Shown: piece after piece, positions 3,865 to 22,783 of the stretch
Position numbering within the stretch: the stretch's first letter is position 1
How the letters are laid out: every line of letters begins with the position of its first letter
NCBI GenBank assembly: GCA_029932675.1
Contig: JAOZPP010000049.1
Coordinates: forward strand, 1-22,783
Reading direction: 5' to 3'
DNA length: 22,783 nt
From: a bacterium
GTDB taxonomy: Bacteria > SM23-81 > DAOVCL01
The notes under the pieces: model-generated
Seen by the model: the letters and a program-made list of their open reading frames with translations, nothing else
Told to the model about the DNA's origin: nothing
Database searches by the model: none
Made by a program: the position numbers and the translations under genes

Positions 3865-5721
3865 TTACTTTGGTTCCCTCCTTCTGGAGGAGAGAAGTAT
3901 TATGTGCCTTAATTCCTCTGTGGTTCTGGCCTCAAGCCAATTTTTTTCAAAGTTGGACTGTTGGGCAATTTGGGCAATGGCCATCAGGGCACGCAGATGA
4001 AAGTTACGCTCATCCGAGGATCCGACAAGGACAAAGACGATGTGGACAGGTGGGAGAACAGTGGAGAAGCTAATCCCTTCCTTGCAGCGGGCAAGGAGGA
4101 TTTCAAACTTTTTTCTCCCTTCAACGATGACGTGGGGGATGGCCAACCCAGGGTGGATAGCGGTGGTGGATTCGCTTTCCCTCTTCAAAAAGAGGTTATA
4201 GAGGTCCTCCTCATTGACCTTTAATCGAGGAGAAAGGGTTTGGGCTGCCAGCCTGAAGAACTCCTCCATCTTCGGAGAACCCCGCACATCTAAGATCTCA
4301 CACCTTTTGATCAGTCTGTCAAATCTGTCCTCTATGATGTTGTCCCTTTCCATCAGGATTTCCTTTAGTTCGTTTTCTAAGGTGTGGCCAGCCAATTCCT
4401 TGGCGGTAACCCTCTCCACGATATGGATGAGCGCCGATCTCCGATTAGCCCTGGGCCGCACCCATAACCAATACCAGAGGAGACCAAAACCAGTGAAGCC
4501 ACCAGTAATGAGCAGCGGTGTCCTCCCCATCTCCAAGATGAGAAATCCATACCCAATGATCCCTAAGATCTGAATCCAGGGATAGAGGGGAGATTTGAAT
4601 TTTGGCTGATAATTTCTAATCTTGCTTTCCCTCATAATAATAACCGAGAGGTTCACCAGCAGGAACATAAGGATCATCATCGTCGAGGCAGTTTCTACTA
4701 AGTTCTTCAGGTCCAAGAACAAGATAGCTATTACTATGAAGGTACCGGTGGAGATAATAGAGTTGTGTGGGGTTTTGAATTTGGAGTTGACTCTAGCCAA
4801 GAAACTGGGCAGGAGCTGGTCCCTGCTCATCGCTAAAGGGTTACGGGAAGCGGAGAGGATTCCAGCGTTGGCGGTAGAGATAAATGCCAACAGGGCGGCG
4901 ATGGCCAGCAGTGCCTCCCCCCAAGTACCTGCAAACACTTTGGCTCCCAAAGAAATGGGGGTGAGGGAGTGGCTGAGGGGATTAGGATCGAGGAGACCTA
5001 CTGTGGTGAAGACAACCAGAACATAGAGGAGCATCATAATGCAGAAGGAGAGAAACATCCCTAAGGGGATGTTGCGGCCAGGGTTTCTCACCTCCTCGGC
5101 CACAGAGGCTATCTTCGTTAGGCCAGCGTAGGAGATGAAGACAAGGCCAGCGGTGGAAAAGACAGGTGCCCATCCATAGGGGGCAAAGGGAAGATATCTT
5201 TGGGGCTGGATGGATAGTACTCCCCGAAAGATGTAGAAGCCAAGCAAGCCGATGAGTCCAACGACCAGGAAGATCTGGAACCTACCAGTCCGTTTGACGC
5301 CGATCAGGTTGACGAATGTAAAGAGAATGCAACAAAGGATAGCGATAAGCCTTATCTGGAATTGTGTTAGGTTGGGGCTGAGCAGGAGGGCGAATATTCC
5401 TATTCCCAGCAGGGCGAAAGCGCTCTTCAAGCTCAGGGATAGCCAAGTGGCCAGTCCCCCAAATGTGCCCGGGGCAGCTCCCATGCTTCGCTCAATAAAG
5501 AAGTAAGAGCCACCTGCCTTCGGCATTGCCGTGGCCAGTTCGGCCTTGGCCAGCATAGTGGGAATCAGCATAATTCCGGCCAGAATGTAGGAGAATATTA
5601 CGGCCGGTCCTGCCTCCCGATAGGCGATGGCGGGCAGAATGAAGAGGCCAGAGCTGATCATAGCTCCTGAGGCTATACAGAAGATGTCCAGCAGGCCAAG
5701 CTCTTTTTTGAGGAGTGGCAT
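3865..5721 (-). CDS. APC-family amino-acid permease fused to a C-terminal PTS EIIA-like domain
   Basis: A 618-residue membrane protein. Residues 1 to about 422 form an APC-superfamily (LeuT-fold) amino-acid permease with roughly 12 hydrophobic segments, beginning with the GAMISSGLFILP substrate-loop motif (19-30). After a charged linker, residues of about 485-612 resemble a PTS EIIA type 2 / EIIA-Ntr domain, with AIHPGLAIPH and the candidate phosphorylatable histidine H530, the block VHIVFVLVGSSDERNFHLRAL (559-579), and a closing helix. The family link suggests uptake of an amino acid or amine gated by a phosphorylation or nitrogen signal; the substrate cannot be read. The ATG start has GGGGGA upstream. 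A possible promoter lies at 5842-5869. Confidence 0.9.
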   Translation of the reverse strand: MPLLKKELGLLDIFCIASGAMISSGLFILPAIAYREAGPAVIFSYILAGIMLIPTMLAKAELATAMPKAGGSYFFIERSMGAAPGTFGGLATWLSLSLKSAFALLGIGIFALLLSPNLTQFQIRLIAILCCILFTFVNLIGVKRTGRFQIFLVVGLIGLLGFYIFRGVLSIQPQRYLPFAPYGWAPVFSTAGLVFISYAGLTKIASVAEEVRNPGRNIPLGMFLSFCIMMLLYVLVVFTTVGLLDPNPLSHSLTPISLGAKVFAGTWGEALLAIAALLAFISTANAGILSASRNPLAMSRDQLLPSFLARVNSKFKTPHNSIISTGTFIVIAILFLDLKNLVETASTMMILMFLLVNLSVIIMRESKIRNYQPKFKSPLYPWIQILGIIGYGFLILEMGRTPLLITGGFTGFGLLWYWLWVRPRANRRSALIHIVERVTAKELAGHTLENELKEILMERDNIIEDRFDRLIKRCEILDVRGSPKMEEFFRLAAQTLSPRLKVNEEDLYNLFLKRESESTTAIHPGLAIPHVIVEGRKKFEILLARCKEGISFSTVLPPVHIVFVLVGSSDERNFHLRALMAIAQIAQQSNFEKNWLEARTTEELRHIILLSSRRREPK

Positions 5722-12905: not shown

Positions 12906-15900
12906 CTACTTCAGAACTACCATCTTCTTTACCTGGGTAAACCTGCCAGCTTTAAGCCGGTAGAAATATATCCCACTGGTTACCTCTTGACCGATCTTGT
13001 TCTTGCTGTTCCACCTCACAGTGTAGTAGCCAGCCTTCTGGGCCTGATTAACCAGTCTGATCACCCGCTGGCCTAACACATTGTAGATGTCCAAGCTCAC
13101 TTTACAATCCTTGGGCAATTGATATTTGATCACCGTAATTGGGTTGAATGGATTGGGATAGTTCTGAGAGAGGGCAAATTCCCTGGGCAGTGGTGTCGCC
13201 TCAGATTGGGTTATTTTAGTGGCAATAGGCTGGCCATCTTTGTCTGCCAGCACAGCCTCCTTAAGATGCAGTTTGACCCGGCCAAGAAGATCCGGGGAGA
13301 CCTTTAGAGGTAGTTCAAGAATGGAACCTTTCCCCACTTCTATTGTTTTTCCCTTGAGGCTATAGACCAGTACCGTCATCTTCCCGCCCTCTGCATTAGA
13401 GGTTATGGTAAGATCCTTACACCTCTCTGTGGCTTTAGCTTTCTCAAAGCTGATATCCTTGGGTTCATACTCCAACTCTAACTGAAGCCCTGCCGCTGGA
13501 ACAGAACTCTTCAGCCCAATGGCAAAGCTAACCCCCTGAGTTGTTGCTTCAGCAGAAGACTCAAGAAAACCGACCTCAGCAGCCTTTTCCCCCTGGGTCC
13601 CTGCAGCCTTGGCTAAGACCTTGTCCTCACAGAACTCACATTCATCATAGAGGATGCAGTTGACCACTTTAATAATGTCCAGAATGTTAACGCTCCCATC
13701 ACAGTTACAGTCACCAGCCCATAACTGATACTCATGAGATGGCGGCTCTGGGGCCTCATCAATGCCATAGAGGATGATGTTCACCATCCTGATAATATCC
13801 AGGATGTTGATCTGCCCGTTGGCATCAACATCCCCCTTGCCAGAGCAGGCAAAGGTCCTATCCGTAGAGGCGGCACATCTCCACTCATCGTCATAGGAGA
13901 TAACCCGGAAATGATAGGTGGTGTCAGCCTGGAGCCCGGTCAGCTCAACAGAGTGGTGGAGAACTAAGGTGCTATCAAACAGTGAGGATAGACCATAGTC
14001 ACTGGTCAAACCATATTCCACCTGGCTGGTGGCTGGAACATTGGTGTCCCACCCTATCCGTGCTGAACTGGGCGAGGTCCTCTCCACATTGACGGCAATA
14101 ACGACAGGCAAAGATAGATCTAAATCTGCCTCTCCTGAGCTGTCCGGTGACTCGGTTGTCTCAAAGATCCCATCTCCATCTAAGTCAGTCCGCATCATAA
14201 AATCGGGGCTGGTAGTTACGTCTACTTCACTTACCGAGCTGTTTCCGCTTGGCCTCCCCCAGTAGGTGGCATAATATCCAGTCTCCCCGCTCATATCCGG
14301 ATAGAAAAGACCCAAGTCAAAGGTGCCTTCATCCCAACCCTCCACTCTAATGGTATAACCACACCCCAGGTCCAAAGCATCCCTGGAGATGAGGATGACC
14401 TGGATGCTATCACTTACCAGATAACTTTGAAACCCTGGTAGACTATCATCGCATATGCCTTGGCAATTACAGATGTGTAGATCCGCTGGACAGGCCAAAG
14501 AGGCAAACAGTCCCGAGAGACCAATATGGAAGTAGGGGAATTGAGAACAGAGCTCAAAGGTGACCTCACCTCCTGGGCACCAATCCAACCAATCCAGAGG
14601 ACATAGCCAAACAGAGGCCGTTGCGGACATACATTCCCTTTCAGGCTTAAAATTGAAGGAGTTCTTCCCCCCAAATTTCCAACCATCAATCCAGAACTCG
14701 GTGTCAAAAGAACCTTCTACTATTTCAGGAGCAAAAGTGAAATGTGCATCGGCATCCAAAAGGTAGAGAAAATGGAGCTTCCCGTAAGAGTGAAAGCCAC
14801 TTTCATCCAAGGTAAGTGAGGCCCCGTTGGCCATAAAACTGATTCCCACTATATCAAAATTCTGCTCTATAACTCCGCTGAATTCGCGGTGGTCCTCCTG
14901 AAGAACAACATTAAGGGAGCCCTTGAATGCCACCCCATGGAAGTAGAAGGGATAGTAGCGAGTTGATCCGCAATACCTTTGCTGAGCCAAATCCAATATG
15001 ATCTTGGACTCTACTTCGTCGAGCTTGAAGATGTCCCCCAGCTTTATCCCCTTCCAGGCTTGAAAGGAGAATCTCCTGTTGGCCCAATCAAGCTCTATTA
15101 TGGCCTCAGCAGCGGTAAAGTGGACATATTTTACCAAATCCAAATCTAGAGTAATATGTCCATATATATAGGCATCGTCATTAAACAGCCGGATTGTCGT
15201 ACCTTTCTTGATGGTAATGCCCACATCAATAAGCACTGTTTTTTCTCTTTCTGAACCTAAGGATTTCTCCATAGCTCCCTTTTTCGCTGAACCAAGGTGA
15301 GTAGAATTAGGCCCGCTTCTGCCCGTTTCCACAGGAGGAACAATACCTTTTTGTCTTAAGCGAGCTTGAATATTAGAAGTACGGGGCTCTTCACCTTTGG
15401 TAGGAGTATAGATTTGAATAGAAATGTCCTCCACTACGGTGACACTCAAGTCGGACAGATTGATGTCCAGCATACCAGTGACCGGAACCCCTGCGGAACC
15501 TAAGTCAAAACCAAACGCTCCTCCACTCTCCTCAAACTCTAATGCCCCACCAGTCAAACCTATGCGGAAAATGCCCCTGTCCATGAAAACGCCCACTGTA
15601 ACCTTTCCCTTGAGCAAGGAGACATCAGTAAATTGAATAGGGTAGGGTAGATCTACCTCCATATTTAGTCCAAAGAACGGTCGGTCATCCAACTTCCAGC
15701 TACCTGCTGAGGCCTCAATCACCCCAAAATAGGGGTCGTCAAACCGAATGTTACCACCTAAAGTGCCATTGTTCAGATCCAATACCAGGGCACCGCTCAA
15801 TGAACTTTGGAAGATTGCACCCGCCGCGTAATGAACCGTCCCTTCTATGAAGACAGCTCCCGTTGCTGGATCTACACTAAAGGTGACGATATTATCAACA

Positions 15901-18362
15901 GAGTAGCTGGACCCTAGGGATAAGATTGCCGGATTGACATACACAACCTGGTTGATGGTGACGGTATTTACATCAAAGGTCAAGGTGGATGTAGCTCCTA
16001 AGAATAGATAAAAGGCATTCCCCAACTGATTGCCTATGCTCACATTATTCTCTGCCCTATAAACGCCTCCCCCTAAGTCCACAAACCTGTCCGCCCGGAT
16101 GGAGAGCTGACCCAGGATGACCACCTCTTGAATGGGCAGCACCTGGCCGCTCACCTGATCGCTCCCCGAGGCCAAGGTGGGATGCCAGGCGCTTACAGTT
16201 ACCGTGCAATCACCATCATGGGTTGGCCTCCAGGTATTGGCATAGATGCCATCGTTTGCCTGATAATCCCCGTGATGGCCATCATCATACAATACCGAAT
16301 CCTTATCTCCAGTGCTGAAGGCCGCCTTCACGCTGTCTGTCTGAGATCCAGGGATTGGGTTGCCAAAATTGTCCCTCACCAAAGCCCTGATCAACTGAAC
16401 ATCCGGTATCCTCACCACAAATCCATCGGCTGGAGACTGGATGTCCACCACCAAGGAGCTTGGCCCCACTATGTCCATCCAGGTGGTATCAGAGCCCCAG
16501 GCCCCACAGCGGCCAGCGGTAACCATCACCAGACAGCTATCCTCCTGATGCTGCGGGCTCCAGATGTTGCCATAGATGCCATCATCGCTGCCCTCATCAT
16601 TGTGTTGGCCATCGTCGTAAAGAATCAAATCCTCGTCGCCATTGCTAAAAGTAGCCCTGGCCATCTGGCCCAATCCGGGCAGACCATCTACCACCACCTC
16701 TGCCTTGATAACAGTCTGAGTTCCCAGATTGATGGACGCCCCCTCCAGGGGTTGCTGGATGTTCACCGTAACCTCATCGGCTGGCCTGATCAGACCAGAC
16801 AGATTCCATACCCTCTCGTTGGCCTCCTCCTGAGATGGCGCGCTGATGTATCTTTCGTATTCGCTGAGACAGAAGAAGACCTCAATGTTGGTAGTCAAAA
16901 CATAATGGCCACCGTTCATATGTTTGGTTCTCAACTGAATCACATTCTTGGAGACTTGGTATGGAGAGAGGTTCAAAAAGGAGGAGTCAACTGGAAAGAC
17001 ATAGGTTCCATCTGGAATCAGGTTGAGCAGTTCACCAACTTTATGACCATTCACATAGATGTGGACATCGTGTTTTTTGTGGTGCCATCCAGATTTAGGG
17101 GTAAACTCCATCCGTAGCTCGCAGCTTTCTATGTTCTCAGTTGTTACCCCAGAGGGAACCTGAAAACCCACATCTATGTTGGGCCTGTTGTTGCAATACC
17201 AATCATGAACCTTCACCGATAATCCCGGGTTGTCCAGATGTGCCAGCCATATCCGCTCACCAGGAGGGGGTGAGAAGTCTGCATAGAGGGAGTCCCTTCT
17301 GCCCAGATAACTGGCCAGGATATAACCTTGCACTGTCTTGGCCAGTGAGGAGGGAAAGGAGATGACCTTCCCATCTTCCCAGACAATGCCCTTCCCGCTG
17401 CTGTCCTCTAAGGATAGGGTGGGGATAGCCTTGAGGTCAACTATTTCACCGGTGCGCACAAAGGCATGGTTTATCACTGGCTGGAAATAAACCTTGTCGG
17501 CTATCTCATCGGAGGCGAAGACGGCCAGATCGGTTAAGGGATCGCCGTTGTTGGTGATACGCAGGTTCTTGGCCAGGGTCCCCTGGTCTATCCCGATCTC
17601 CTCAAAGCTCACATCGATATGAGGGACATTGATGTGCACATGGGCGGTAGCAAAATCCCTGATGGTATCCCGATTGACGCTCACCAGGGAGAGGGGAAAG
17701 GAGTAATCGATATCCCTGGCATCTTGAGCATGGATGGCCAGGGTGACCTCGGCTGTCTGATTAGGATTGAGGGGGATGATGTCATCCTCTGAGCCGGAGT
17801 CCACAAAGCCGACGATTATATCCTCATAGGGATTCTCCACCTGGACCAATAGATCGTGGGACACGCTGTCGGTGTTTACCACCCCTACGCTTACCCTCTG
17901 GTCATAGTCATGGTTCACCCCGAAGTAATATTCCTCCTGGGTGAAGACGATGCCATTGCTCACATAGAACTTCCTCACCTCGCTGCTGTCTATGCCTCCC
18001 CAGGAACCTCTGCTTTTCACCCACCAATAATACCAGTGATTGCGGGGAAGATCCTTCACCGTAACCCTATGTTCCCTTCCGGATAGGCCGAGCACAGATG
18101 TGTATCCGGTGTCGGTATCCGACCGATAGAATAGCTCTGTGGAGGTAAAGGCCCCTGTCTTCCAGCTAAAGGTCACATCGTTGGAGCCGGTGATGATGGA
18201 GTCGGGCGGAGAGAGATCGGTGATTGAGGGATTAAAGTTTACCGTAAAGGTGGGAAATTCGGTAAAGAAGCGCTCAAGCTTTTTAGAATAGAGCTGCAAA
18301 TCAAAGGGGTGATCGCCGATATTTGCCGGTGAGGGAGGAACATCTATGCTCAGGCTTATCAA
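12906..18362 (-). CDS. Downstream part of an interrupted giant exoprotein: Ig/Fn3 modules, dockerin, cohesin-like and sorting domains
   Basis: The frame continues, in phase, the gene ending at 18372; only a TGA and three codons separate them. As an independent gene it would start at TTG 18362, which has GAGGGA upstream but no signal peptide. Residues 1-43 complete the split beta sandwich. Then come an Fn3-like part (46-135), CARDB-like and other beta modules (136-529), two related repeats with FSTGD and LYDDGxH (530-634, 635-742), an unassigned beta-rich region (about 745-1290) with a lysine/glycine linker near 985-1045 and a cysteine cluster at 1244-1304, an Fn3 domain (about 1419-1508), a dockerin with two DxxxxGxINILDII motifs (1509-1573), a cohesin-like sandwich (1608-1726) and a type IX-like sorting domain (1727-1818). 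The role, perhaps binding of polymer or cell surface, is inferred. Confidence 0.8.
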   Translation of the reverse strand: MISLSIDVPPSPANIGDHPFDLQLYSKKLERFFTEFPTFTVNFNPSITDLSPPDSIITGSNDVTFSWKTGAFTSTELFYRSDTDTGYTSVLGLSGREHRVTVKDLPRNHWYYWWVKSRGSWGGIDSSEVRKFYVSNGIVFTQEEYYFGVNHDYDQRVSVGVVNTDSVSHDLLVQVENPYEDIIVGFVDSGSEDDIIPLNPNQTAEVTLAIHAQDARDIDYSFPLSLVSVNRDTIRDFATAHVHINVPHIDVSFEEIGIDQGTLAKNLRITNNGDPLTDLAVFASDEIADKVYFQPVINHAFVRTGEIVDLKAIPTLSLEDSSGKGIVWEDGKVISFPSSLAKTVQGYILASYLGRRDSLYADFSPPPGERIWLAHLDNPGLSVKVHDWYCNNRPNIDVGFQVPSGVTTENIESCELRMEFTPKSGWHHKKHDVHIYVNGHKVGELLNLIPDGTYVFPVDSSFLNLSPYQVSKNVIQLRTKHMNGGHYVLTTNIEVFFCLSEYERYISAPSQEEANERVWNLSGLIRPADEVTVNIQQPLEGASINLGTQTVIKAEVVVDGLPGLGQMARATFSNGDEDLILYDDGQHNDEGSDDGIYGNIWSPQHQEDSCLVMVTAGRCGAWGSDTTWMDIVGPSSLVVDIQSPADGFVVRIPDVQLIRALVRDNFGNPIPGSQTDSVKAAFSTGDKDSVLYDDGHHGDYQANDGIYANTWRPTHDGDCTVTVSAWHPTLASGSDQVSGQVLPIQEVVILGQLSIRADRFVDLGGGVYRAENNVSIGNQLGNAFYLFLGATSTLTFDVNTVTINQVVYVNPAILSLGSSYSVDNIVTFSVDPATGAVFIEGTVHYAAGAIFQSSLSGALVLDLNNGTLGGNIRFDDPYFGVIEASAGSWKLDDRPFFGLNMEVDLPYPIQFTDVSLLKGKVTVGVFMDRGIFRIGLTGGALEFEESGGAFGFDLGSAGVPVTGMLDINLSDLSVTVVEDISIQIYTPTKGEEPRTSNIQARLRQKGIVPPVETGRSGPNSTHLGSAKKGAMEKSLGSEREKTVLIDVGITIKKGTTIRLFNDDAYIYGHITLDLDLVKYVHFTAAEAIIELDWANRRFSFQAWKGIKLGDIFKLDEVESKIILDLAQQRYCGSTRYYPFYFHGVAFKGSLNVVLQEDHREFSGVIEQNFDIVGISFMANGASLTLDESGFHSYGKLHFLYLLDADAHFTFAPEIVEGSFDTEFWIDGWKFGGKNSFNFKPERECMSATASVWLCPLDWLDWCPGGEVTFELCSQFPYFHIGLSGLFASLACPADLHICNCQGICDDSLPGFQSYLVSDSIQVILISRDALDLGCGYTIRVEGWDEGTFDLGLFYPDMSGETGYYATYWGRPSGNSSVSEVDVTTSPDFMMRTDLDGDGIFETTESPDSSGEADLDLSLPVVIAVNVERTSPSSARIGWDTNVPATSQVEYGLTSDYGLSSLFDSTLVLHHSVELTGLQADTTYHFRVISYDDEWRCAASTDRTFACSGKGDVDANGQINILDIIRMVNIILYGIDEAPEPPSHEYQLWAGDCNCDGSVNILDIIKVVNCILYDECEFCEDKVLAKAAGTQGEKAAEVGFLESSAEATTQGVSFAIGLKSSVPAAGLQLELEYEPKDISFEKAKATERCKDLTITSNAEGGKMTVLVYSLKGKTIEVGKGSILELPLKVSPDLLGRVKLHLKEAVLADKDGQPIATKITQSEATPLPREFALSQNYPNPFNPITVIKYQLPKDCKVSLDIYNVLGQRVIRLVNQAQKAGYYTVRWNSKNKIGQEVTSGIYFYRLKAGRFTQVKKMVVLK
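12909..13184 (-). other. Type IX-like C-terminal sorting domain of the giant protein
   Basis: The last 92 residues carry FALSQNYPNPFNP, YQLPKDCKVSLDIYNVLGQ, AGYYTVRWNS, SGIYFYRLKAG and a basic, hydrophobic end (KKMVVLK). In FCB bacteria such modules direct outer-membrane translocation by the type IX secretion system or anchor the protein. No secretion component lies in the window. Confidence 0.85.
13185..13541 (-). other. Cohesin-like domain
   Basis: About 119 residues with the cohesin-type pattern: VSFAIGLKSSVPAAGLQLELEY at the start, a glycine-rich turn, MTVLVYSLKGKTI, GKGSILELPLKV and a late strand ending in DKDGQPIATK. Cohesins bind dockerins; here both sit on one chain. Assignment is by pattern only. 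Confidence 0.5.
13644..13838 (-). other. Dockerin type I domain
   Basis: Two calcium-loop repeats, GDVDANGQINILDIIRMVN and GDCNCDGSVNILDIIKVVN, are separated by an insertion of about 20 residues. Both keep the Asp/Asn ligands and the NILDII helix start that define dockerins. The spacing between the repeats is longer than in cellulosomal dockerins. Confidence 0.88.
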
Positions 18363-18374
18363 CTTGCTCCCTCA
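18330..18374 (-). other. In-frame TGA within the giant exoprotein frame, at the base of an 8-bp hairpin
   Basis: On the minus strand the codons read ...CAT CTG GTA TCC TGA GGG AGC AAG TTG ATA AGC..., with the stop at 18372-18374. The same frame is open from 22319 to 12906. The stop forms the first three bases of TGAGGGAG, which pairs perfectly with CTCCCTCA (complement of 18330-18337) across a 29-nt loop. Whether this is a mutation, a read error or a recoding site cannot be decided from sequence alone. Confidence 0.9.
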
Positions 18375-21300
18375 GGATACCAGATGGAAGCTATCAGCGC
18401 TCAGGCTATACCAGCTTGGCTGCAGGCTATCCACCGATAGGGTGAAATCGTCACCACCAGGGTTCCCATTGGTCACCTCGATGGTAAACTCTAAGTGTCC
18501 CCCTAAGCTCACCGAATCGGCCATCGGCTCACAGGTAAAGTGAATATTTCGAGGGTGATAGAAATAGAGTAGCTTGTGGGCAGTATTGTTTCCCTCATTC
18601 AGCTCCGGGATGAGGTTATCAGGGTCCACCTCAACCGGCATATCAAAAAAATTTTCTTCTTCGTTGTGTATGAAAAGCTCTATCGAGGCAGTTGCGCTGC
18701 CACCTGCTGGAATAGGGCCAACTATCCTTCGATATGTATAGTAAAATCTCACATATGCGCTGTCCACATCAACAGCTCCCACATTGTGAACCTTGACATT
18801 TACGGTAAACACTGTGCTGTCAACTGGTAGTTCGGGGTCAGAAGATATATCTTGAGGGGAAATGGTAAGATCGGGAAGAAGCAGAGGGGCAAGTTGAATA
18901 TCCACAAAGGTGGTCTCGTCAGTAATCACCTGCACCCCATAAATGGTGGTGTCTCTGTATCCGGTGGCAGAAGCCCGGAGATTGTAAAGACTGGCAGGTA
19001 GGTCAGGAATGCTATATGAGCCTGTAGTATCGGTAGCATCAACCCCTATAATCGTGGAGTCCTGCAATGCTTTCACTAAAACGTTTCTAATAAGTTCATG
19101 AGTATTGAGATCTCTTGTTCTTCCGGCTATTGTTCCTCTCTGCACGGGCCTCTTGCTCAGATTCCTCAGCACTGAAATATCATTGGTTCCTCCATTGGTG
19201 GAAGCCAAATCAAAATCCAAGTCATTGTCAAAATCAGAGCAAATCATGAAATCAGGATTACGCCCGACCGAGTACTTAACGATTGTGTCAAAGATACCAT
19301 TTCCATTATTTAACAGAACTGAAATATAATTGCTATCACTGCTGGTTACAGCTAAATCGAAATCACCATCGCCATCTAAATCCTCAGAGACTATGAAACG
19401 AGGTTTGTCCCCAACTGGATAATCGGTAGGCAATCCAAAAGAGCCGTCACCGTTGTTGAACGCGACAGAGACTTTGTTATCGCCAGAGTAAGCCGCGGCT
19501 AAATCGAAATCACCATCGCCATCTAAATCCCCAGAAACTATGCAATCACCACCAAAAGTGTAATTAACAGCAGGTGCGAAGGTGCCATCTCCATTATTGA
19601 GCAAAACCGAACCTGTATTAGTGGAGAGGTCGAAGTGACCATCACCATTCAAATCTGAGACTACTACTTGTTTAGGGCTTCCTTGAACATTATAACTTGC
19701 TGTCAGGGCGAATGTACCATTGCCTTGATTCAAAAAAACAGAGACTTTGCCCGTATCACCTGAAGCTATATTTGTAATAGCGAGATCCTTGTATCCATCG
19801 TCATCCAGATATTCCGAGATTATAAAATAGGGGAAACGCCCGGCATAGTAATTGACAGCCGGGGCAAAGTACCCGTTTCCGTAGTTAAGCAAAACAGAGA
19901 CGCTATCTTCAGCCCAGTCGTTGGCGCTTGCCAAATCAAAGTCCCCATCCCCGTCAAAGTCGTCAGCCACCAGGAAGAAAGGTGGACCAGGAACAACATA
20001 GTAGCCGCGGAGGCGAAAGGTACCATCACCATTATTTAGTAAAACTAAAATGGCTCTGTGGCCGAAACATATTACAGCAAGATCCTGATACCTGTCCCCG
20101 TTGAAGTCTGCGGCAACAATGAACTGTGCCCGACTCGAAACTCGGTAGTTAGTCGAGGGAGCAAAAGTCCCGTCACCGTTGTTGATTATAATAGAAATAC
20201 TGTCGCTGTTGAAGTTAGCAACGGCAAAATCCTTATCCCCGTCATTGTCCAGGTCCTCAGCTAACGCAAACACAGGGTTGCTATCAACTGGGCAACTCAC
20301 CGCAGGGGCAAAAAGGCCCAATAGCCTAAGTTCAATATTCACACTAGTAATCTCACCCGAGATCACCTGCACCCCATAAATGGTGGTGTCTCTGTATCCG
20401 GTGGCAGAGGCCCGGAGGTTGTAAAGCCCAGCCGGTAGGTCAGAGATGCTATATGAACCTGTGGTATCGGTCAAATCACTCCCCATAACCGTAGCTCCCT
20501 GAAGTGCTTCCACCAAAGCGCCAGCAATGGGATTATGGGTATCCAAATTTTCTACTGTCCCAGCAATGGTGCCTCTTCCCCCTGGTTGATTAGTCAGATT
20601 TATTAGAACCGAGACATTATCACTGTTTGAATTCGTCACCGCCAGGTCCATATCCCCGTCCCCATCCAAATCTGAGGAGACTATAAACCAAGGATAGCTT
20701 CCCACCGGGTAGTTTGCAGCCGGGGTGAATGTGCCATCACCGTTGTTTAACAGAACTGAAACATTATCACTCAAATCATTGGTCACCGCCAGGTCTGTAT
20801 CTCCATCTCCATCCAAATCGGAGGAAACTATGTGGAAAGGCCCATCTCCAACCCTGTAGCTTACAGCAGGGGCAAATGTGCCATCTCCATGATTTAACAA
20901 AACAGAAACATAAGCACTATCAGTATTTGCTGGCACCGCCAGATCCATATCCCCATCCCCGTCTAGGTCGGTGTAAACCATGTCTGATGCCCAACCCCTA
21001 ACTTCATTATTTATCGGAGCAGCAAATGTACCATCGCCGTGATTCAAGAAAACGGAGATGTGATAACCAACAGGCACTGCAAGATCCATATCCCCATCCC
21101 CATCCAGATCTCCGGAAACTATAAAAACCGAACCGCCCTCAGTGTCATAATTCATAGCGGAAGTAAATATGCCATTTCCATTATTCAACAAGACGGAAAT
21201 CCAATCATCCCCAGCATTCGCTACTGCCATATCTTCATCCCCGTCTCCATCCAAATCTGAGAGGACTATGTGTTCAGGGCTGTCCCCAACCCCATAGCTT

Positions 21301-22319
21301 AGAGGAGGGACAAATGTCCCATCACCATTGTTCATTAAAACAGAAATGCTCTGAGCTTCGACATTAGTCACTACCAGATCCGTATCTCCATCCCCATCCA
21401 AATCTGAGGAGACTATAAACCAAGGACCGCCTCCCACCGGGTAGTTTACCACCGGGGCGAATGTGCCATCGCCCTGATTTAACAAAACCGAAACATTACC
21501 ACTTGAATAATTGGTCACCGCCAGGTCCATATCCCCGTCCCCATCCAAATCTGAGGAAACCATATAATAAGGAAGGCTATCCACGGGGTAGTTAACCGCG
21601 GGGGCGAAGCCGGGCCAGGGGTGGTAGGCTACCCATCCGCACATCAGCAGCTCGATCGTCGGATCGTAGGCACCCCACATACCGTCAACTGTTGGGCCGC
21701 CGAACCAGGTGTAGGTGGTATCGCCATTGTTCTCCAGATTGGCTAATGGATGAGGGTAATCCCCGGTCTTTACAAAACCAATAAAGAAAGGACGGGCAGG
21801 GGAGATTACCGGTATGGGGCCATAATCGGCGAGGTTCAGCCTCTCCCACCCATAGGGAGGTCCGCCGCCGGTCACCGTCCAAGGGATGGGACCGGCGATG
21901 ACATCGCCCAAGAGCTTGATGGAATCCCTCGGGAAGATGGCTATACCATCATTAGGGCAATCTGGCCCTGCCTCCCAGACATACATATCAACCGTCCCCG
22001 CATCATACCATTGCACATCAACATAATAGAGTGAGCAGGCTCTGGTCGGCCTATACCAGACGGCAAAGGTGTCGCCCACCGCTCCACTGCTCAGGTAATA
22101 TTCAGCGGTATCATCTGAACAGTGGTTCAGCTCATAGAGGCCATTCTTCGGGGTTGATAGAAGCTTGATGGTTGCCCCGGCAGTTGGGTGTTCCACCTTT
22201 TCCAGCTCAAGGTTCTTGTAAGCACCGTTAAGGATATGGAGCTCAGCAAAGGAGCTGTTTGCCCTAAGCCCAATGCTTACTGCGGCAATGGCCACAAAGA
22301 AAACAAATATCCTTCTCAT
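18372..22319 (-). CDS. Upstream part of an interrupted giant exoprotein: signal peptide, FG-GAP/VCBS arrays, CARDB
   Basis: A 1,315-residue frame ending at a TGA. The signal peptide (cleavage about 25, SSFA) is followed by a beta-rich jelly-roll-like domain (28-235). The first FG-GAP/VCBS array has seven units starting at F238, F287, F336, F385, F432, F482 and F531, each with a DLDGDGDxDLAV calcium loop and VSVLLNNGDGTF. Then come a carboxypeptidase-regulatory-like domain (582-668), a second array of eight units (670-1055), a second regulatory-like domain (1060-1144), CARDB (1148-1255) and the first half of a beta sandwich (from 1256). That sandwich continues in phase past the stop, so this is probably not the natural C terminus. 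The ATG has AAAGGAGA upstream. FG-GAP arrays usually form integrin-like propellers for adhesion; that role here is an inference. Confidence 0.85.
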   Translation of the reverse strand: MRRIFVFFVAIAAVSIGLRANSSFAELHILNGAYKNLELEKVEHPTAGATIKLLSTPKNGLYELNHCSDDTAEYYLSSGAVGDTFAVWYRPTRACSLYYVDVQWYDAGTVDMYVWEAGPDCPNDGIAIFPRDSIKLLGDVIAGPIPWTVTGGGPPYGWERLNLADYGPIPVISPARPFFIGFVKTGDYPHPLANLENNGDTTYTWFGGPTVDGMWGAYDPTIELLMCGWVAYHPWPGFAPAVNYPVDSLPYYMVSSDLDGDGDMDLAVTNYSSGNVSVLLNQGDGTFAPVVNYPVGGGPWFIVSSDLDGDGDTDLVVTNVEAQSISVLMNNGDGTFVPPLSYGVGDSPEHIVLSDLDGDGDEDMAVANAGDDWISVLLNNGNGIFTSAMNYDTEGGSVFIVSGDLDGDGDMDLAVPVGYHISVFLNHGDGTFAAPINNEVRGWASDMVYTDLDGDGDMDLAVPANTDSAYVSVLLNHGDGTFAPAVSYRVGDGPFHIVSSDLDGDGDTDLAVTNDLSDNVSVLLNNGDGTFTPAANYPVGSYPWFIVSSDLDGDGDMDLAVTNSNSDNVSVLINLTNQPGGRGTIAGTVENLDTHNPIAGALVEALQGATVMGSDLTDTTGSYSISDLPAGLYNLRASATGYRDTTIYGVQVISGEITSVNIELRLLGLFAPAVSCPVDSNPVFALAEDLDNDGDKDFAVANFNSDSISIIINNGDGTFAPSTNYRVSSRAQFIVAADFNGDRYQDLAVICFGHRAILVLLNNGDGTFRLRGYYVVPGPPFFLVADDFDGDGDFDLASANDWAEDSVSVLLNYGNGYFAPAVNYYAGRFPYFIISEYLDDDGYKDLAITNIASGDTGKVSVFLNQGNGTFALTASYNVQGSPKQVVVSDLNGDGHFDLSTNTGSVLLNNGDGTFAPAVNYTFGGDCIVSGDLDGDGDFDLAAAYSGDNKVSVAFNNGDGSFGLPTDYPVGDKPRFIVSEDLDGDGDFDLAVTSSDSNYISVLLNNGNGIFDTIVKYSVGRNPDFMICSDFDNDLDFDLASTNGGTNDISVLRNLSKRPVQRGTIAGRTRDLNTHELIRNVLVKALQDSTIIGVDATDTTGSYSIPDLPASLYNLRASATGYRDTTIYGVQVITDETTFVDIQLAPLLLPDLTISPQDISSDPELPVDSTVFTVNVKVHNVGAVDVDSAYVRFYYTYRRIVGPIPAGGSATASIELFIHNEEENFFDMPVEVDPDNLIPELNEGNNTAHKLLYFYHPRNIHFTCEPMADSVSLGGHLEFTIEVTNGNPGGDDFTLSVDSLQPSWYSLSADSFHLVS
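18925..19034. repeat. 110-bp direct repeat, copy 1 (regulatory-like domain)
   Basis: Nearly identical to 20362-20471. It encodes the DTTGSYSIxDLPAxLYNLRASATGYRDTTIYGVQV part of the carboxypeptidase-regulatory-like domain. The copies are 1,437 bp (479 codons) apart, consistent with duplication of an array-plus-domain module. Confidence 0.85.
19155..20315 (-). repeat. Second FG-GAP/VCBS array, eight coding repeats
   Basis: Eight units of about 44-52 residues starting at F670, F719, F768, F818, F870, F914, F961 and F1010 of the upstream part. The calcium loops are more varied than in the first array (DNDGDKD, NGDRYQD, DDDGYKD, DNDLDFD), suggesting the array is older or under weaker constraint. 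Confidence 0.85.
20362..20471. repeat. 110-bp direct repeat, copy 2 (regulatory-like domain)
   Basis: Partner of 18925-19034; the two differ at only a few positions, much less than the flanking propeller repeats differ from each other. Recent duplication or gene conversion would explain this. Confidence 0.85.
20592..21608 (-). repeat. First FG-GAP/VCBS array, seven coding repeats
   Basis: Seven units, five of them 49 residues apart, with strongly conserved DLDGDGD calcium loops. At DNA level the complement contains the recurring block ATCCCCATCCAAATCTGAGG, so copies are close relatives. Confidence 0.9.
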
Positions 22320-22509: not shown

Positions 22510-22783
22510 TCAGCGCATCAGAACCATCTTCTTGGTGTCGGTGAACTTGCCAGCTTTAATCCGGTAGAAGTAGATACCTGAGGCTACATCTTTGCCAGCC
22601 TGGTCTCTGCTGTCCCATCTGACCGAATGATACCCAGCCTCTTGTTGACCATCAATTAGTGTCCTCACCAATTGCCCCTCAATGTTGTAGATCTTCAAGC
22701 TGATTGCTGCCGACTGATTACGATCTACGATCAACGAGTAACGAATAACGGTCTCTGAGTTAAACGGATTAGGATAGTTCTGG
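22510..22783 (-). CDS. C-terminal end of a secreted protein with type IX-like sorting domain (partial)
   Basis: The frame is open from the right edge to a TGA at 22510-22512 and reads QNYPNPFNSETVIRYSLIVD, then SLKIYNIEGQLVRTLIDG, AGYHSVRWDSRD, SGIYFYRIKAG and KKMVLMR. This is a complete sorting or anchoring domain of the same type as in the two other secreted proteins of the window; the functional part of the protein lies outside. Its DNA is close to that of the six-repeat gene's sorting domain (26 of 29 bases identical between 22721-22749 and 6207-6235). Confidence 0.9.
   Translation of the reverse strand, partial: QNYPNPFNSETVIRYSLIVDRNQSAAISLKIYNIEGQLVRTLIDGQQEAGYHSVRWDSRDQAGKDVASGIYFYRIKAGKFTDTKKMVLMR

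Follow-up and report, generated by a model that had tools for sequence, protein, structure and literature searches.

The window analyzed here is a whole contig (C28) of 22,783 bases, from an assembly of 3.03 Mb in 116 contigs that is 97% complete and whose many short contigs suggest a metagenome-assembled genome. An interrupted gene occupies positions 12906 to 22319 of its minus strand, to which all coordinates given below for this gene refer, and runs in one frame from an ATG at 22319 to a TAG at 12906. The joined frame (22319 to 12909; 3,137 codons, the internal TGA included) contains exactly one stop, the TGA at codon position 1316 (18372 to 18374). This stop closes a first open frame of 1,315 amino acids (18372 to 22319) that starts with the ATG, while the second open frame (12906 to 18362; 1,818 amino acids) has a TTG as its first possible start. 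The two are separated only by the TGA and the three sense codons GGG AGC AAG, and their frame is identical, as the original prediction had correctly described. Elsewhere in the window, on the minus strand at 3865 to 5721, lies a gene for a putative APC-type permease, the C-terminal part of which resembles a PTS EIIA-type domain when its translation is inspected by eye.

The 1,821 codons that remain open 3' of the TGA are not due to chance (log10 P of approximately -37 for random sequence of matching composition), and the codon-use scores on the two sides of the TGA, 0.18 and 0.23, are coding-like. The 271 bases surrounding the TGA are single copy in the genome; thus, there is no near-identical paralogue able to mislead the assembler. 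Within the frame 3' of the TGA there are 599 single-step routes to another stop, none of which has been taken, and approximately 1.5% unconstrained substitution would be required before a further stop reached a probability of 95%, so that the TGA, if real, is recent. The absence of other stops had previously been read as a sign of either recent decay or persisting selection; the observation itself is correct, but given the amount of substitution required it says little.

Pfam searches of the joined protein identified, 5' of the stop, FG-GAP repeats (a total of 13 FG-GAP_3 stretches), a pair of CarboxypepD_reg domains, and a CARDB domain at residues 1149 to 1247 (18579 to 18875), the last complete Pfam domain ahead of the stop. 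The second open frame encodes the rest of an Ig-like domain, FN3-like domains (one at residues 2742 to 2813), a type I dockerin at residues 2828 to 2888 (13656 to 13838), and a type IX secretion system (T9SS) C-terminal sorting domain (Por_Secre_tail) at residues 3054 to 3135 (12915 to 13160). The latter scored 35.3 bits against a cutoff of 27 and is the only sorting-tail match in the joined protein. As the N terminus of the first open frame is hydrophobic and, judged by eye, signal peptide-like, and the second open frame has no signal peptide, the earlier assignment of a signal peptide without a sorting domain to the first half, and the reverse to the second, is borne out. With a signal peptide-like N terminus, repeats and Ig-like modules, and a C-terminal sorting domain, the protein resembles T9SS cargo (Por_Secre_tail, PF18962; modular FG-GAP/CARDB/dockerin exoproteins). 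It differs from such cargo in its one stop, which under the standard code parts the putative signal peptide from the sorting domain, leaving the two on no single conventionally translated chain. The genome carries T9SS machinery (an SprA_N match on C25) and 124 matches to T9SS tails. A second T9SS tail lies upstream in the window (22522 to 22776, minus strand), at the contig end, and forms the end of another cargo gene, placing two cargo genes in tandem.

The stop falls within an Ig-like beta-sandwich (approximately residues 1256 to 1361; 18237 to 18554), identified from the alignment, the structure model, and Foldseek, and of NEW3 type by resemblance. It is immediately followed by an FN3-like sandwich (approximately residues 1366 to 1445; 17985 to 18224) with a weak Pfam match and a confident model. 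An AlphaFold2 run on a five-sequence alignment (A1) gave two beta-sandwiches with a mean pLDDT of 89.6, and the best Foldseek matches were likewise beta-sandwich domains. In the model the stop occupies the turn that joins strand E61-64 to E69-77, and strands E86-96 and E101-112 of the first sandwich are still ahead. As about three strands of the Ig-like sandwich remain past the stop, the first half ends in an incomplete domain, and the proposal that the two sides of the stop form one beta-sandwich domain agrees with the model, in which the stop is internal to a complete Ig-like sandwich.

Relatives of this region are continuous across the stop site. Among 386 relatives, G312:C16 aligns from residue 1256 onward with 32% identity across 595 columns and has an open frame of 2,578 codons, and a scan of GTDB contigs identified L008 (DYJB01000243.1), with 33% identity over 706 columns in one open frame. 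Both cross the site unbroken and continue into the following domains, so that the alignment across the site, originally suggested for orthologues, shows in these relatives one continuous frame and not two genes. The homologous block of G312 starts 60 residues ahead of the stop, after TSP3-type repeats in place of CARDB; thus, the block is a shuffled module with its edge upstream of the stop. Two further relatives, matching the one domain, also align over the site, L006 (C61) from the same genome and L003 from the same genus. In A1 the stop column is occupied by Gly in four of four relatives, within a (P/A/S)-G turn, and the stop is absent from all four, each of which is distant. Searches of the four-genome phylum, the 386 relatives, and the GTDB contigs yielded no close orthologue, and PDB sequence searches with two comparison genes returned no match. 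From the model and the relatives together, the interrupted locus was one gene, not two.

Whether the TGA could be read as sense was examined in stretches of the genome totaling 1.27 Mb with some overlap, about 40% of the whole. The stops of long coding-like segments (n = 1,235) comprised 443 TAA, 435 TGA, and 357 TAG, extensions past TGA were no longer than those past TAA or TAG, and prfB, encoding release factor 2, is present with a score well over the cutoff; UGA is an ordinary terminator in this genome. A changed genetic code in which UGA is sense, for example Gly, would account for the residue that the relatives carry at the stop column, but UGA terminates about a third of the genes in the presence of prfB, and the only tRNA with a UCA anticodon among the tRNA loci scanned is tRNA-Sec. 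A reassigned code was rejected on stop-codon usage and release factor 2, and we regard it as the least probable of the readings weighed here. A 4-bp anticodon stem in tRNA-Trp has been linked to UGA read-through (PMC13092985); the tRNA-Trp of this genome is canonical, with a 5-bp anticodon stem, and a superwobbling tRNA-Trp was rejected on this ground. Selenocysteine at position 1316 deserves slightly more credence, as tRNA-Sec is directly followed by selB (G000:C9:5462-7423; L026, L030), so that selenocysteine machinery is present, and another T9SS-tailed gene of the same genome resembles a genuine selenoprotein. The gene thus shares with bacterial selenoproteins an in-frame UGA and a genome that carries selC and selB, but it lacks a bacterial SECIS (bSECIS) element, a Cys homologue, and a redox site. 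Under the bSECIS model (PMC13188914) the loop must be small, carry G in its first two positions, and lie 16 to 37 nucleotides from the UGA; no hairpin at this TGA fits these constraints. The model is permissive, being passed by 208 of 500 random TGAs, so that failing it has some weight and passing it little. Residue 1316 lies in a structural turn without a redox motif, and the failure of the bSECIS model, combined with the presence of Gly rather than Cys in the homologues, makes selenocysteine very unlikely at this position.

Regulated or tolerated read-through, in which a minority of ribosomes would insert Trp or a near-cognate residue to give an anchored 3,137-residue form while most would yield a 1,315-residue form, is consistent with the long frame still open past the stop. 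UGA is also known to be leaky, and bacterial genes that combine a conserved in-frame stop with a dN/dS below 1 have been described (PMC7918605). A perfect 8-nucleotide inverted repeat (TGAGGGAG...CTCCCTCA; 18330 to 18374) starts exactly at the TGA, and such repeats are uncommon, beginning at only 12 of the 9,924 TGAs in the sampled stretches. However, this repeat, which fails the SECIS model, was spotted after the fact. Its fold has a z score of -2.3 in a 48-nucleotide cut but is not unusually stable in longer cuts, and it is probably incidental. No Rfam match above the gathering score was found at the stop site, and neither a terminator nor a convincing promoter above chance was found at the junction. 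Read-through is further opposed by the relatives, none of which has the stop, by the canonical tRNA-Trp stem and the presence of release factor 2, and by the short form, which ends mid-domain without a T9SS tail and so offers no useful released product. Without a SECIS element, a UGA-decoding tRNA other than tRNA-Sec in the scanned loci, or a conserved stop, the original suggestion of regulated read-through with a released 1,315-residue form was not upheld, and we consider read-through improbable. Its stronger version, in which the UGA is kept on purpose and partial read-through, with the stem-loop following the UGA, sets the ratio of a short, nonexported form to a full-length, T9SS-anchored one, is a shade less probable. 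Two separate genes are less probable again, although still ahead of selenocysteine. In that case the second gene would start at the TTG at 18362, perhaps by translational coupling, with the purine-rich GAGGGAG located 4 nucleotides ahead serving as its ribosome binding site, and other same-frame neighbors in the genome are indeed real operon genes. The pairs examined, however, look like distinct genes of the usual kind, most having a start codon close by, whereas the junction here lies inside one folded domain that relatives encode in one continuous frame. The second open frame would, moreover, give a product that has the T9SS tail but, lacking a signal peptide, could not reach the T9SS.

To place the stop against the background of the genome, the same 1.27 Mb (approximately 410,000 coding-like codons) was surveyed for stops flanked on either side by coding sequence in one frame, and the pairs were sorted by eye and by codon-use scores. 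Nearly all look like ordinary adjacent genes, most with a start just past the stop. Besides the present gene, three were judged by eye to be broken inside the protein. One, on C98 (L086:1371-2819, minus strand; G000:C98:1371-2819), encodes an Omp28-like, T9SS-tailed protein with a TGA (2708 to 2706) in a thioredoxin-like AHIG-(TGA)-PYCPSAE context. This TGA passes the bSECIS test (stem UCAGCC/GGCUGA, loop AGUU, spacing 34), and judging from its sequence the protein is probably a secreted selenoprotein; a literature search on Omp28 selenoproteins found no paper linking the two. Another, on C95 (L112:3460-6543, plus strand), encodes an M36-like peptidase with a beta-helix and a T9SS tail, and is interrupted within its catalytic part by a TGA at 4885 (HEGFADY-(TGA)-AA); this TGA is followed by a strong hairpin compatible with the permissive SECIS constraints, yet no redox motif is visible. 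The third, a gene for a C25-type peptidase, is disrupted by an in-frame TAG (L152:10504, plus strand; G000:C111:30504), with a C25 propeptide and catalytic domain 5' of the TAG and a beta-helix 3' of it according to Pfam, and with no start in the next 60 codons. Non-selenocysteine breaks thus occur at about one per 0.4 Mb, and the two further genes of this kind, one with TGA and one with TAG, amount to a low background rate of nonsense mutations or consensus errors. As both stop codons are represented, there is no pointer to a UGA-specific mechanism, with counts too small to exclude one.

Occasional nonsense pseudogenes are a normal feature of bacterial genomes. The best explanation for the locus, to which we assign a probability of approximately 0.88, is that a single nonsense codon, arising from a mutation or an assembly base error, interrupts one gene at the Gly turn of an Ig-like domain and that the gene is probably nonfunctional. 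This is the simple reading of the original prediction, and it is strengthened by relatives that are continuous with Gly at the stop column and by the position of the stop in the middle of the sandwich. Because such pseudogenes are normal in bacteria, a genuine nonsense allele, recent or segregating in the population that was sampled, is favored over a single-base consensus error of the contig by about two to one, the error being the less likely of the two but a substantial possibility. Counting against a nonsense mutation is the intactness of both sides, with no second lesion, as selection with read-through would give the same picture. With one stop, coding-like flanks, and a sense codon in relatives, the gene resembles nonsense-mutated bacterial genes (pseudogenes or "in-frame stop" genes; Belinky et al. 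2021, PMC7918605). That study argues that read-through lets bacteria tolerate certain in-frame stops; the present stop, however, is common to no orthologue and so falls outside the class of conserved in-frame stops described in that study.

If the nonsense codon is real, ribosomes would stop at position 1316 and release a 1,315-residue product ending in an unfinished domain, which, with its putative signal peptide, would enter the periplasm. In characterized T9SSs the C-terminal domain is the outer membrane translocation signal (PMC4804311). Lacking this domain, the short form would be retained rather than released and would probably be degraded in the periplasm. The 1,315-residue form had earlier been called released, and on these grounds it is instead expected to remain periplasmic; a literature search on truncated T9SS cargo found nothing. 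Any product from the TTG at 18362 would lack a signal peptide. As the short form has no tail and the TTG product no signal peptide, the gene is most likely nonfunctional in the genome as assembled. The single frame, the unbroken relatives, the mid-domain position of the stop, and the ordinary terminator role of UGA are shown here, whereas the lost export and the recent age of the stop are inferred.

For annotation, the locus calls for caution, as one exoprotein gene shows as two, each with half of the export signals. A stop that was kept and read through would constitute a new control of surface display, for which no support was found here. The genome nonetheless has tRNA-Sec and selB and probably encodes a T9SS-tailed, thioredoxin-like selenoprotein; thus, UGA breaks in the exported cargo of this lineage need to be tested for selenocysteine before they are called pseudogenes.
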